From the NCBI GenBank assembly GCA_021798875.1, contig JAJZBN010000010.1:1-64000 (forward strand): DNA of 64,000 bases, in the 5' to 3' direction. This DNA is from a bacterium (GTDB taxonomy: Bacteria > SZUA-79 > Acidulodesulfobacterales > Acidulodesulfobacteraceae). Shown piece after piece: positions 2,406 through 48,496 of the stretch. The translations under genes and the position numbers were made by a program. Positions within the stretch are counted from its first letter, which is position 1. The number at the start of each line of letters is the position of its first letter. The notes under the pieces were generated by a model. The model was given only the letters and a program-made list of their open reading frames with translations, did no database searches and was not told the DNA's origin.

Positions 2406-3285
2406 ATATTTAATAAATTATTTTAAAATTGCATTCTTAAATATTAAATCTAATATTTCGGGGAATATTTTCGCTTTTTTAATAATGTCCTTTTCGTTTT
2501 TCATAATGCTCTTTTTTCTGCTGTGTTATGCAAATATTTATAACTACATGAATATTTTTCAAAAAAACAACGTTATGATTGTTTTTTTGAAAAGCGGGGC
2601 ACGTAAAAAAAACAGGCAAAATATAATGAATTTTATAAATAAAATCAACGGAATTAAAAAAATTAAATACTACGGCAATAAATCTTCAATGAAGTTTTTA
2701 TCGAAAAGATTAAAAAATCTTAAATCGGTTTTAAAAAAAATAAATCCTAAGGTTATGCCTTCATTCATTAAAATTTATTTTAAAAAAAGCGCCGTAAGTT
2801 CCATTTTTCTAAGTAACATTTATCTTAGACTTACTTCCATTAAAGGAATCAAATTAGTTTACTACAACAAAATGCTGGAAGCTAAAATAAGACAGTTCAT
2901 GTTTTTCACTAAAGTTATAGGTCTTATTCTTTTTTTATTCCTCTTAATTCTGTCGATTTTTATATCATACAGCGCAATAAAACTTATTATATTGCGGAAA
3001 CAAAACGAAATAGAAATACTTAGGCTTATAGGAGCTACCGACGGCTATATAAGAATACCTATGTTTATAGAAGGTGAGATAGGCACCGTTTTAGCTTTTT
3101 TAGTTTCTATTTCGCTGCTTTACTCAATTTATAAAATATTTATATTTTACGGATTCGACAGTTTTTTAAATTTTTTCCATATAAAAATAATTTTTTTAAA
3201 CGCAATGCAGATTGGCGTAGTGTTTTTAATAGCCTTAATTTCTGGAATCGCGGGAACTTATTTGTCTTCCCGAAAATTCTTTTAA
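2386..3285 (+). CDS. ftsX: Cell-division protein FtsX (permease-like)
   Basis: 299 residues. An N-terminal membrane segment lies at about 28-50, then a periplasmic domain of about 120 residues, and three more membrane helices at about 173-197, 222-245 and 268-290. This is the FtsX/MacB-type fold. The sequence IILRKQNEIEILRLIGAT after the second helix is the typical FtsX cytoplasmic loop. The start is a TTG at 2386 inside the end of ftsE, with AAGGG/CAGGG upstream. FtsX partners FtsE and carries its signal to peptidoglycan hydrolases. The gene ends 30 bases from the convergent cobQ gene, and no terminator was recognised in the gap. Confidence 0.92.
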   Translation: MISQKLKYLINYFKIAFLNIKSNISGNIFAFLIMSFSFFIMLFFLLCYANIYNYMNIFQKNNVMIVFLKSGARKKNRQNIMNFINKINGIKKIKYYGNKSSMKFLSKRLKNLKSVLKKINPKVMPSFIKIYFKKSAVSSIFLSNIYLRLTSIKGIKLVYYNKMLEAKIRQFMFFTKVIGLILFLFLLILSIFISYSAIKLIILRKQNEIEILRLIGATDGYIRIPMFIEGEIGTVLAFLVSISLLYSIYKIFIFYGFDSFLNFFHIKIIFLNAMQIGVVFLIALISGIAGTYLSSRKFF

Positions 3286-16465: not shown

Positions 16466-16494
16466 ACGGGGACAGAATTCAATTCTGTCCCCGT
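16466..16494. repeat. Palindromic repeat, family A (copy 1)
   Basis: A perfect 29-base palindrome: two 14-base arms (ACGGGGACAGAATT and its complement) around a single central base. It starts 13 bases past the stop of dxr and is followed by CACAACTTGG. That flank matches, in reverse, the spacer of the arrays at 29952-30042 and 35604-35705. It therefore belongs to the same repeat family in the opposite orientation. A role at the dxr 3' end (terminator or mRNA stabiliser) is possible. Confidence 0.9.
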
Positions 16495-22509: not shown

Positions 22510-22534
22510 GGGGATAGAATTGAATTCTGTCCTC
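22510..22534. repeat. Palindromic repeat, family A (copy 2, degenerate)
   Basis: The arms GGGGATAGAATT and AATTCTGTCCTC around a central G differ from the consensus at two positions. It ends 4 bases from the stop codon of the polysaccharide-deacetylase gene, matching the 3'-end preference of the family. Confidence 0.8.
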
Positions 22535-29951: not shown

Positions 29952-30042
29952 GAATTCTGTCCTTTCAAGTTGTTATGGGGACAGAATTGAATTCTGTCCT
30001 TTCAAGTTGTTATGGGGACAGAATTGAATTCTGTCCCCATAA
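29952..30042. repeat. Tandem array of family A palindromes (copy 3)
   Basis: Two exact 37-base units (29952-29988, 29989-30025) are followed by a 17-base partial unit. Each unit holds half-palindromes that join into GGGGACAGAATT-type palindromes, separated by the spacer TTTCAAGTTGTTAT. It lies downstream of the GNAT gene. With the family C element at 30108-30194 it fills the 307-base gap between the rhodanese and GNAT genes; no gene was found there. Confidence 0.92.
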
Positions 30043-35603: not shown

Positions 35604-35705
35604 AAAGGACGGAATTGAATTCTGTCCTTTAAAATTGTGACGGGGACGGAATTGAATTCTGTCCTTTAAAATTGTGACGGGGACGGAATTGAATTCTGTC
35701 CCCGT
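35604..35705. repeat. Tandem array of family A palindromes (copy 4)
   Basis: Two exact 37-base units (35617-35653, 35654-35690) are bordered by partial units, giving three palindromes with spacer TTTAAAATTGTGAC. Arms read GGGGACGGAATT on one side and complement GGGGACAG on the other, so the stem would hold a G-U pair. It lies 3 bases past the stop of the sugar-transferase gene. It is the largest part of the 188-base gap to aconitase. Confidence 0.92.
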
Positions 35706-46070: not shown

Positions 46071-47477
46071 TTACCTTACGCCTTCTCCCGACGGCGTAAA
46101 CCCTTCACCCGATGCGGAAAAGCCGGCTCCCGAACTTGTAAAATTAATATTAACGGGCAGGTTTTTACCGCCGGGAATACCTTCGGTAGCGCCTATAAAT
46201 ATCCTGCCGCCCGTACCGCTAATTTTTCTTTCGAGTTTTAATTTAGGAAGTTTTTTATAAAGACACGCCGGCGGCCATACAGGGCTTCTTGCTATAAAAA
46301 TAAAATTTCCTTCATCCGTTAAATATCCAATCTCCGCCCATGTCTGCGAAAGTTCGAGGTCTTCCGGAAATATAACGTATCTGCTGCCGTAATATCCGTC
46401 TAAAACTTCATACCACAGCATATCGTCGTCTTTATAAACCCTTAGTATAGGTTTATATGAAGAAGATTCAGGTTTCTGCCTGAATCTCCATACTATCTGC
46501 CTGACGTTAGGTTTTTGGAAATATATTCTCACCATGCTTTTTCCGGAAATTTCCACCGGCTGACCATATTCTAAAACAGGAATATTTTCCGAAGGGCTCA
46601 ATCGGCTCCAACTTAAAGAGATAAGTCCGATCTGCTCGCCTATATTTTTTTCGTTTTCTACGTATTCTACTTCGCAAATTTCCGGAATTATATCGGTTAA
46701 ACTGTTTTCAATTTCGACCGCTTTTTTAGAAGTACTTTTTTTAGATATTTCATTTTTTGGAAGTTCGGGAACCAACTTCTTAATAGGCTGCTGTTTTAAT
46801 TTTTCCTCTTTTTCGGTAAATTTCGGTTCTTTTATTTTTTCTACGGATTTAACTTCACCCTTAACATCTATTTTTGATTTCATTTTTATATTTTTCGGCT
46901 CCGCTTTTTCCTTAACTTCTTCTTTAATCTTTGAACGTTTTTGCTTAGCGGCCGAAAGAGATTTCTTTTCGTCTATTACGTGTCTGGCTATTTCATTAAG
47001 TTTTTTAATATTGGATGATTTCACGAAATCTGTTTTTACCGCTTTATGGGTAGTAAAACTGTAATTAAATATTTCGAAATCGAATACATGGGGCGCATAT
47101 TCATTTAGCATTAGTTTATTGCTTAAGGTTATCGCTGAATAATTTACAATATCTATACCGTAATGATTTTTTAACCGTTCAAAAAAACTACCGGCAAAAT
47201 CTATAAATTCATCCTGTTCGTTAAATTCGGGCATAGCATTAAATTCTTCGTTATAAAACAGTATCCTGCCTTCAAAAACAGGTTTAAATATGCTGGACAA
47301 TCGTCTTTGATTGAATTTCATACAGTCTTCGGCGGCTTTTTTTTCTAATTTTTCGATAATTTTAATTTTCTGCTTAGTATCGGGATTTTTATAATAAATA
47401 ACTTTGTCTTTTTTAGAAGTCGTCTTTGCTATAGATTCGGGGTCAAATATAACGGTGAAAAATATATCTTTTTTCAT
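46071..47477 (-). CDS. DUF4912-like protein upstream of the GH57 genes
   Basis: 468 residues. The first 160 form an unrecognised domain, then a lysine- and glutamate-rich linker (about 160-270). From about 290 to 430 a domain resembles DUF4912 (SWSRLSPSE, VWRFRQKP, LRVYKDDD, IGYLTDEGNFIFIARSPVWPPAC). The last 40 residues are glycine-rich with a repeated GFxxSGEG pattern. The family is of unknown function and often lies beside GH57 branching enzymes, perhaps as a carbohydrate-binding or scaffolding protein. The gene is 51 bases upstream of the branching enzyme. Confidence 0.72.
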   Translation of the reverse strand: MKKDIFFTVIFDPESIAKTTSKKDKVIYYKNPDTKQKIKIIEKLEKKAAEDCMKFNQRRLSSIFKPVFEGRILFYNEEFNAMPEFNEQDEFIDFAGSFFERLKNHYGIDIVNYSAITLSNKLMLNEYAPHVFDFEIFNYSFTTHKAVKTDFVKSSNIKKLNEIARHVIDEKKSLSAAKQKRSKIKEEVKEKAEPKNIKMKSKIDVKGEVKSVEKIKEPKFTEKEEKLKQQPIKKLVPELPKNEISKKSTSKKAVEIENSLTDIIPEICEVEYVENEKNIGEQIGLISLSWSRLSPSENIPVLEYGQPVEISGKSMVRIYFQKPNVRQIVWRFRQKPESSSYKPILRVYKDDDMLWYEVLDGYYGSRYVIFPEDLELSQTWAEIGYLTDEGNFIFIARSPVWPPACLYKKLPKLKLERKISGTGGRIFIGATEGIPGGKNLPVNINFTSSGAGFSASGEGFTPSGEGVR

Positions 47478-47527: not shown

Positions 47528-47550
47528 TTGGGACAGAATTGAATTCTGTC
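47528..47550. repeat. Palindromic repeat, family A (copy 5)
   Basis: A 23-base perfect palindrome with arms GGGACAGAATT around a central G. It lies between panC and the DUF4912 gene, 83 bases past the panC stop and 78 bases before the next pair of repeats of the related GGTGCC family. Confidence 0.9.
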
Positions 47551-47606
47551 CCTGCTATTATATCTGTAATAATAATATCATAAAAATTTCATTTTTCAAC
47601 ATAAAC

Positions 47607-47669
47607 GGTGCCCGAATTGAATTCCGGCACCTTTAATTTGAGACGGTGCCCGAATTGAATTCCGGCACC
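47607..47669. repeat. Pair of GGTGCC-type palindromes (family A variant) overlapping panC
   Basis: Two 25-base palindromes (47607-47631, 47645-47669) are 38 bases apart. They share the AATTGAATT core with family A, but the outer arms read GGTGCCSG and CSGGCACC instead of GGGGACAG and CTGTCCCC. The panC stop codon (47633-47635) lies between them, and the second palindrome encodes the PanC C-terminus. Confidence 0.92.
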
Positions 47670-48496
47670 GTAATTATAATATTGTCAATAAGCCTGACTC
47701 CTTTATATCTGATTGCGGCAAGAAGAATATCGCCGTTCTCTGCATTTTGATATTTTCTATTAAGAGCCGGGTCAGTTATTTCAACGTAGTCAACTTTAAA
47801 TCCGTTTTTTATCAATTCTTTTACGGCAAATCTCTTTAATTTTTCTGCCGACTTCTCTCCTTTTTTAAATAAATCGGCTGTCGACGACAGTATTTTATAA
47901 AAAGCGCTTGCCGCCTCTTTTCCTGCAACATCAAAATATGTATTTCTCGAACTCATTGCAAGTCCGGATTCTTCCCTTATCGTTTCCACCGGAATAATTT
48001 TAACGTTTAGAAAAAAATCTTCCGCCATTTTCTTTATTAAAGCATACTGCTGGTAATCTTTTAAACCGAAAAAAGCAAAATCGGGTTCTATTATACAAAA
48101 AAGTTTCATAACTATCGTAAGCACGCCCTGAAAATGCGAAGGTCTGAAAAGTCCTTCCAAATTTTTTGAATATTCGGGATTAACTATAAAAGTATCCGTA
48201 TTTTTTACTATATCAGATTTAGGGTAAAAAAGGACAGGAACGTTTAAATCCGATAAAATTTTTTCATCGCCTTCGATATCTCTCGGATATTTATCAAAGT
48301 CTTCGCCCTGTCCAAACTGCAGCGGGTTTACAAATATAGACGCCACGGTTTCTCCGTAACGCTTAGCCGATTCTATAAGTCTTATGTGTCCTTTATGGAG
48401 CTTGCCCATGGTAGGCACGAAAGAAATTTTTTTTTCGGACTTTTTTAAATTATGCGAGAATTCTTTCATCTCGGCTATTTCGGTTATAATTTTCAT
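47633..48496 (-). CDS. panC: Pantothenate synthetase
   Basis: 287 residues. PanC joins pantoate and beta-alanine using ATP to give pantothenate. The HIGH-like nucleotide motif is in PTMGKLHKGHIRL near 29-41. The KMSKS-like region corresponds to GLAMSSRNTYF. The natural family end is near RLIDNIII. The last 12 residues (276-287, TVPEFNSGTVSN) are encoded by a palindromic repeat, so they are an added tail. panD lies about 1.4 kb upstream, so the two pantothenate genes flank an amidohydrolase. Confidence 0.93.
   Translation of the reverse strand: MKIITEIAEMKEFSHNLKKSEKKISFVPTMGKLHKGHIRLIESAKRYGETVASIFVNPLQFGQGEDFDKYPRDIEGDEKILSDLNVPVLFYPKSDIVKNTDTFIVNPEYSKNLEGLFRPSHFQGVLTIVMKLFCIIEPDFAFFGLKDYQQYALIKKMAEDFFLNVKIIPVETIREESGLAMSSRNTYFDVAGKEAASAFYKILSSTADLFKKGEKSAEKLKRFAVKELIKNGFKVDYVEITDPALNRKYQNAENGDILLAAIRYKGVRLIDNIIITVPEFNSGTVSN

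Follow-up and report, generated by a model that had tools for sequence, protein, structure and literature searches.

Repetitive extragenic palindromes (REPs) are the closest described counterparts of the element considered here. In PMC3733652, they are presented as imperfect palindromes of 20 to 40 nt whose copies number in the tens and are found largely in intergenic DNA, a short distance past the 3' ends of genes; REPs adjacent to gene ends, REP termini that provide stop codons, and protein ends encoded by REPs have already been reported in that paper, and it lists REPs in genes for tRNA pseudouridine synthase B. A second system, the Rickettsia palindromic elements (RPEs), is described in reviews (PMC2229807 and PMC10969869) as in-frame insertions of about 105 to 150 nt that encode an open frame. 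Here, we describe the end of panC, the gene for pantoate--beta-alanine ligase in the synthesis of vitamin B5, in a bacterial genome in which a pair of REP-like palindromes has, with high probability, been inserted at the 3' end of the gene, leaving the enzyme predicted from the sequence 11 residues longer than that of its relatives. The gene lies in a 64,000-nt stretch (GCA_021798875.1, contig JAJZBN010000010.1, forward strand), here referred to as the window, whose positions are used in Table 1 and throughout; G000 denotes the window's own genome.

The window PanC contains a complete family domain. PF02569 (Pantoate_ligase) matches at positions 1 to 268 of 268 (8.9e-87; 291 bits, with a cut-off of 20.7) and ends at residue 274, and TIGR00018 matches at 284 bits, above its curated cut-off of 212.75, and ends at residue 275. 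Past the domain, the frame runs through the first of two identical 25-nt inverted repeats, palindromes A and B, each built as GGTGCC-C-GAATTGAATTC-C-GGCACC, and stops in the 13-nt linker between them (repeat unit, 38 nt). This position of the stop between two palindromes is as an earlier sequence-only reading of the locus (the original prediction) had described it. The prediction was mistaken in calling GGTGCC the palindrome, since GGTGCC is one arm and the signal lies in the core GAATTGAATTC; as a signal of its own, GGTGCC was rejected because its 8 occurrences in the window are at the chance level (7.3 expected). The same reading derived residues 276 to 287 from the palindrome, which is correct for residues 277 to 284 and for the last base of codon 276. 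According to the codons, residues 285 to 287 (VSN) are encoded by the linker, and residues 274 to 276 are encoded by neighbouring bases.

Palindrome A, folded with its flanking bases, reached -10.7 kcal/mol (z, -4.70), compared to -7.7 kcal/mol (z, -3.79) for palindrome B and -9.8 kcal/mol (z, -6.69) for a third copy that lies ahead of the next gene. All three folded better than 200 of 200 shuffles. When A and B were folded jointly, the copies paired with one another, and two separate hairpins would therefore compete with one long hairpin. An intrinsic terminator was considered and set aside, as no T-run follows the hairpins on the panC strand when the sequence is read without a terminator scan. 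The open reading frame (ORF) 3' of panC (468 aa; 46071-47477, minus strand) has no Pfam or NCBIfam match at 0.001.

We compared the end of PanC with those of its relatives. PanC was detected in 37 of the 41 genomes searched, and ends could be read at 20 genus and family loci (L002 to L021); L022 is truncated at the end of its contig, and no loci were assigned to G006 or to the second copy in G010. All 20 readable proteins (58 to 89% identity) are 275 to 279 residues long, versus 287 in the window, and the nearest three (G014, G013, and G011; 88 to 89% identity) have 276 residues and end in RLIDN followed by VFLS or IFLS. The original prediction had called for this comparison, and its outcome agrees with what was expected; the contrary case that it had named, this tail in a genome lacking the repeat, did not occur among these 20 proteins. 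At the DNA level, a GAATT[CG]AATTC repeat at the panC stop is likewise absent from all 20, one of which (L002) has a copy 62 nt behind its stop. In G011, G013, and G014, the empty site is readable: 8 nt separate GACAATRTW from TTGAAAAATGAAATTT, where the window has 78 nt. The DNA 3' of panC and the start of the next gene continue after the repeats as in G011 and G014. Because this 3' DNA of the relatives persists in the window behind the repeats, the event is read as a gain. Extension of a core enzyme by a repeat insertion, as originally proposed, is thus borne out by three near relatives with a readable empty site, although the tail is not 12 residues in the sense first given: the net gain is 11, and the replaced stretch comprises residues 274 to 287. 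The natural stop, said to have been replaced, has been replaced in effect but not literally, being displaced downstream and, because the net gain of 70 nt is one base off a multiple of three, out of frame.

The opposite history, in which a long PanC is ancestral and the repeat was lost in the relatives, is extremely improbable. Other copies of the family do occur in related genomes, but the repeat is absent from the PanC genes of all 20 readable relatives, the nearest three share one short empty site, and G014 has the third, intergenic copy but not the panC pair. Given its shortened counterpart at the same place in G014, this third palindrome is probably older than the panC pair. In other families (L023 to L030), PanC continues for 3 to 11 residues past the RLID(N/H) motif, and the length of its tail is therefore naturally loose.

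The palindromes at panC belong to a family that is abundant in this genome. Chance is excluded for the core GAATTGAATTC, of which the window has 10 occurrences, compared to 0.10 expected from shuffles (0 of 100 shuffles reached 10), and the 2.5-Mb assembly has 83 exact copies, compared to 0 for a backwards control. The 83 copies, all taken with their flanks, group into 47 clusters of one to four copies, 39 of which are free of overlap with ORFs of 100 aa or more, as judged by a simple ORF call. Arrays run head-to-tail, with a complete last copy and inner copies that are often shortened, and the consensus consists of TTTCCATTTTGTGAC, a stem of roughly nine pairs enclosing GAATTGAATTC, and then GTA with an A+T stretch. 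The stem sequence varies (GGGGACA, GGTGCCA, GGTGCCC, and AGTGCCA), and its arms covary: among 59 distinct 29-mers, the Watson-Crick count was unmatched in 2000 shuffles at stem positions 1, 3, 4, and 5, while position 2 hardly varies, positions 6 to 9 show weaker covariation, and positions 10 to 12 show no excess. A CRISPR-like (clustered regularly interspaced short palindromic repeat) array was rejected because the spacing differs between clusters (mostly 36 to 48 nt) and the linkers in one cluster repeat the same block. One array, in L107 (G000:C121:81478-85711), contains a run of N at about 2058-2177, and the copy numbers of longer arrays are therefore uncertain. Across 30 genomes of the phylum, a 25-nt pattern of the element was found 26 times in G000, 25 in G013, 21 in G011, 15 in G002, and 11 in G014, with 0 or 1 copy in each of the other 25. 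On this distribution of rich and poor genomes, the expansion of the family is recent and clade specific.

Similar to REPs, the element is a short, hairpin-forming palindrome with dispersed, mostly extragenic copies close behind gene 3' ends. It differs from REPs in that the GTAG/CGTC tag is missing from most copies in this genome; the left foot is GTAG in 2 of 83 copies and GACG (CGTC reversed) in 21, and the right foot is CTAC in 3 and CGTC in 1. Its arrays are also head-to-tail, whereas head-head dimers predominate in PMC3733652. Based on the tag result, we file the panC repeat, by its sequence, as REP-like and outside the GTAG/CGTC-tagged superfamilies.

The position of the family relative to stop codons is unusually regular. 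In 22 of the 47 clusters, an antisense stop triplet stands exactly 4 nt from the stem on its GTA side, compared to 0 to 9 clusters for other offsets from 0 to 13. In 11 clusters, the frame that this +4 triplet ends is 100 codons or longer, and an in-frame stop is found at +8 in 4 more. When clusters without ORF overlap and with an upstream gene end were considered, 23 of 31 were within 15 nt of that end, distances that rest on simple ORF calls and not on curated genes. These counts indicate that the element is placed behind stop codons with base precision. Two loci in the window allow a comparison with element-free orthologues: the 481-codon frame ahead of the three-copy cluster ends at the same stop in the G015 orthologue, and the 237-codon frame has the same stop position in G011 and G015, both of which lack the element there. 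Because these orthologues stop at the same place, the element at both loci, as judged from sequence, sits behind the native stop and brings no new one. Separately, a copy at G011:14786 apparently changes a gene's last residues.

Table 1. Positions of panC, its palindromes, and other copies of the repeat family (window positions unless a locus is named)
Feature	Position	Strand	Remarks
panC, pantoate--beta-alanine ligase, 287 aa	47633-48496	-	ORF with PF02569 and TIGR00018; tail residues 274-287 read as repeat-derived
Palindrome A (proximal), 25-nt inverted repeat	47645-47669		Encodes PanC residues 277-284 (VPEFNSGT)
Palindrome B (distal), 25 nt, identical to A	47607-47631		Starts 1 nt after the new stop
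panC stop in use, TAA	47633-47635	-	In the linker between palindromes A and B
Inserted/replaced stretch, 78 nt vs 8 nt in near relatives	47600-47677	-	Between GACAATRTW and TTGAAAAATG; net +70 nt
Native panC stop TGA, retained	47596-47598	-	37 nt past the new stop, out of frame; TTGAAAAATGAAATTT block common to G011, G013, and G014
Antisense stop triplet TAA	47674-47676	-	4 nt from the palindrome A stem; one base off the panC frame; ends a frame that stays open over just 33 codons
Third copy, GGGACA stem	47529-47553		Intergenic, ahead of the next gene; shortened copy at the same place in G014
Three-copy cluster	35605-35703		4 nt past the stop that ends a 481-codon frame; arrangement shared by G011 and G014
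Single copy	22510-22534		4 nt past the stop that ends a 237-codon frame
Single copy	16468-16492		15 nt behind a 401-codon frame
Two-copy cluster, same family	29977-30038		Between ORFs
Sister palindromes	L099 (G000:C105:14774-19888) 1992-2020, 3096-3124		In folE2 and aroC loops whose length differs among members of the genus

Considering these data together, we propose that a two-copy unit of a lineage-specific REP-like palindrome entered the last codons of panC after the split from the nearest sampled relatives. Members of the family often sit a few nucleotides behind a host stop and leave the protein unchanged; at panC, the unit is about three codons too early. The boundary TAA, which is the host stop in many copies, is one base out of frame at panC, and this offset accounts in a single step for why PanC reads through while many neighbours of the family do not. 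The offset may have arisen either at insertion or by a later indel. Translation would then proceed through palindrome A (VPEFNSGT) and terminate in the linker (VSN-TAA), one nucleotide ahead of hairpin B. The resulting tail would probably be a tolerated, unstructured by-product. In an AlphaFold2 model of PanC (28 sequences; mean predicted local distance difference test [pLDDT] score, 92.3), residues 281 to 287 score below 50 and no secondary structure follows the strand at residues 267 to 274, and on this basis the tail is most likely a loose end. The enzyme itself looks intact, as the window PanC keeps 45 of 45 invariant columns in the 28-sequence alignment, of which it is one member.

We also considered that the element has been kept for a function, with either the tail or the paired hairpins at the message end tuning PanC activity, stability, or expression. 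Such a role would suit both the start of hairpin B one nucleotide behind the stop and the frequent location of clusters near an upstream gene end, and it has a precedent in Escherichia coli, where REPs lying no more than 15 nt from a stop cause ribosomes to stall, with reduced translation (earlier work restated in PMC12306157, 2025). By analogy with this stalling, hairpin B, which directly follows the stop, may reduce the amount of PanC made. However, the tail is unique to one genome and of low confidence in the model, the same family stands behind many unrelated genes, and the tail lacks conservation to indicate selection. We therefore regard a retained function as unlikely and a neutral by-product as the better account of the tail.

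A candidate for the mobilizing enzyme is a REP-type tyrosine transposase. The genome has one Y1_Tnp gene (L031 / L110, G000:C18; PF01797 above the cut-off), and its best NCBIfam match is NF047646, REP-associated tyrosine transposase (RAYT), at 71.9 bits. A single gene of this kind may be a point of likeness to the described REPtron/RAYT systems; the differences are a score below the curated cut-off of 80 and gene flanks without a panC-type palindrome. AATAAAGGTGTCAGATTTATT repeats flank the gene, and AATAAATAAATCTGACACCTTTATT half-repeats, which are distinct from the panC repeat, lie near it and near its relatives (L113 to L116). The enzyme was rejected as a proven mobilizer because the flanks do not support this, and a link between it and the panC-type element is plausible.

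Several observations weigh against the proposed insertion or its mobilization by such an enzyme. Relatives of the transposase gene are present in three of the five element-rich genomes, and no such gene was shown in the element-rich G011 (81% complete) or G013 (65% complete). The 3.3-kb transposase locus contains no GAATTGAATTC within 1 mismatch, and in G000 and several relatives the gene is flanked by a different half-repeat, of the AATAAATAAATCTGACACC type. At panC, no target duplication was identified, the exact boundaries of the insertion are ambiguous by a few nucleotides, and the insertion and the predicted tail are known from assembled sequence alone. An assembly or binning artefact, in which palindromic repeats misjoined the panC end in a draft assembly, could draw on the 126 contigs of the assembly and on the run of N in the L107 array. 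This is nevertheless very improbable: a contig of 64,955 bases contains both junctions in its interior, the repeat unit is short, the order of the native downstream block and the next gene's start matches that in G011 and G014, and the junction has the style of other copies of the family.

The insertion at panC is not the only case in which palindromes of this kind are found in a protein gene. Eighteen cluster-overlapping ORFs were submitted to Pfam, a set that leaves aside a few short ORFs (two in L107 and a 125-aa frame antisense to aroC in L099). Five were recognized (FolE2, AroC, an Rrf2 regulator, TruB, and a sigma factor), and the 13 of 18 without a Pfam match were not counted as genes. 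The sigma factor (L105:3031-3789) was also not counted as an affected gene; its apparent start is in the repeat, and translation may begin downstream. The affected genes are therefore five, namely, those for PanC, TruB, the Rrf2 regulator, FolE2, and AroC. TruB has a tail in G000, G013, and G011, while its stop precedes the palindrome in G002 and G014. In the Rrf2 regulator (L185 to L187), a TAG stop abuts the palindrome in G002 and G014, the G000 frame reads through a palindrome at about the same place (SEFNSGTIINKMK), and G011 and G013 are without it. The peptide EFNS recurs in the PanC, TruB, and Rrf2-regulator tails.

In folE2 and aroC, a sister palindrome (AAGGGGTCAGAATTGAATTCTGACCCCTT) is inserted in frame, and both copies read KGSELNSDPF. 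Among the sequences read, 6 of 13 for FolE2 and 6 of 14 for AroC have palindromes with arms of at least 15 bp at these sites, and a second AroC loop holds another. The complementarity of the sister palindromes extends into locus-specific flanks by a mean of 5.6 nt, a value that 0 of 5000 permutations reached, compared to 1.9 nt with mismatched flanks (36 rows representing 33 distinct elements after identical 25-nt flanks were merged; L201 to L229 and L099, from ten genomes of the genus). The panC-type palindromes show no clear arm extension beyond the stem. Template switching between arms, which has been proposed for RNA hairpins (PMC8794818), is by analogy a candidate for the natural explanation of the arm extension, and it could also give stem covariation without selection on the hairpin. 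Like RPEs, these palindromes place DNA in frame in conserved genes and add a recurrent peptide (KGSELNSDPF or EFNS). They differ from RPEs in that their units measure about 25 to 40 nt in this genome, as compared by the RPE lengths given in reviews, and in that the outcome at panC is a longer C terminus that ends at a new stop. More speculatively, and at present only as a tentative idea that we think is rather less likely to be right than wrong, such elements might, in this genus, continually supply core enzymes (PanC, TruB, FolE2, AroC, and an Rrf2 regulator) with new ends and loops: they would target the few nucleotides behind stops, small misplacements would regularly create tails, and template switching would lengthen the arms into the host sequence, new coding DNA thus being a joint product of host and element.

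The panC event is real and of an already known kind, as REP-encoded protein ends have been published (PMC3733652). Our literature search returned no paper on a REP that combines a C-terminal extension, a stop codon, and an insertion and no paper on palindromic elements in acidophiles. For annotation, the family carries a warning, since tails containing EFNS or ELNSD are repeat-derived and are not conserved domains. The locus provides a clean case, with readable empty sites, in which a REP-like neighbour of stop codons has turned into coding sequence of a core enzyme. With it, protein segments encoded by palindromes, which are most familiar from Rickettsia, extend to a bacterium in whose genus loci with and without the element can be compared for five genes.
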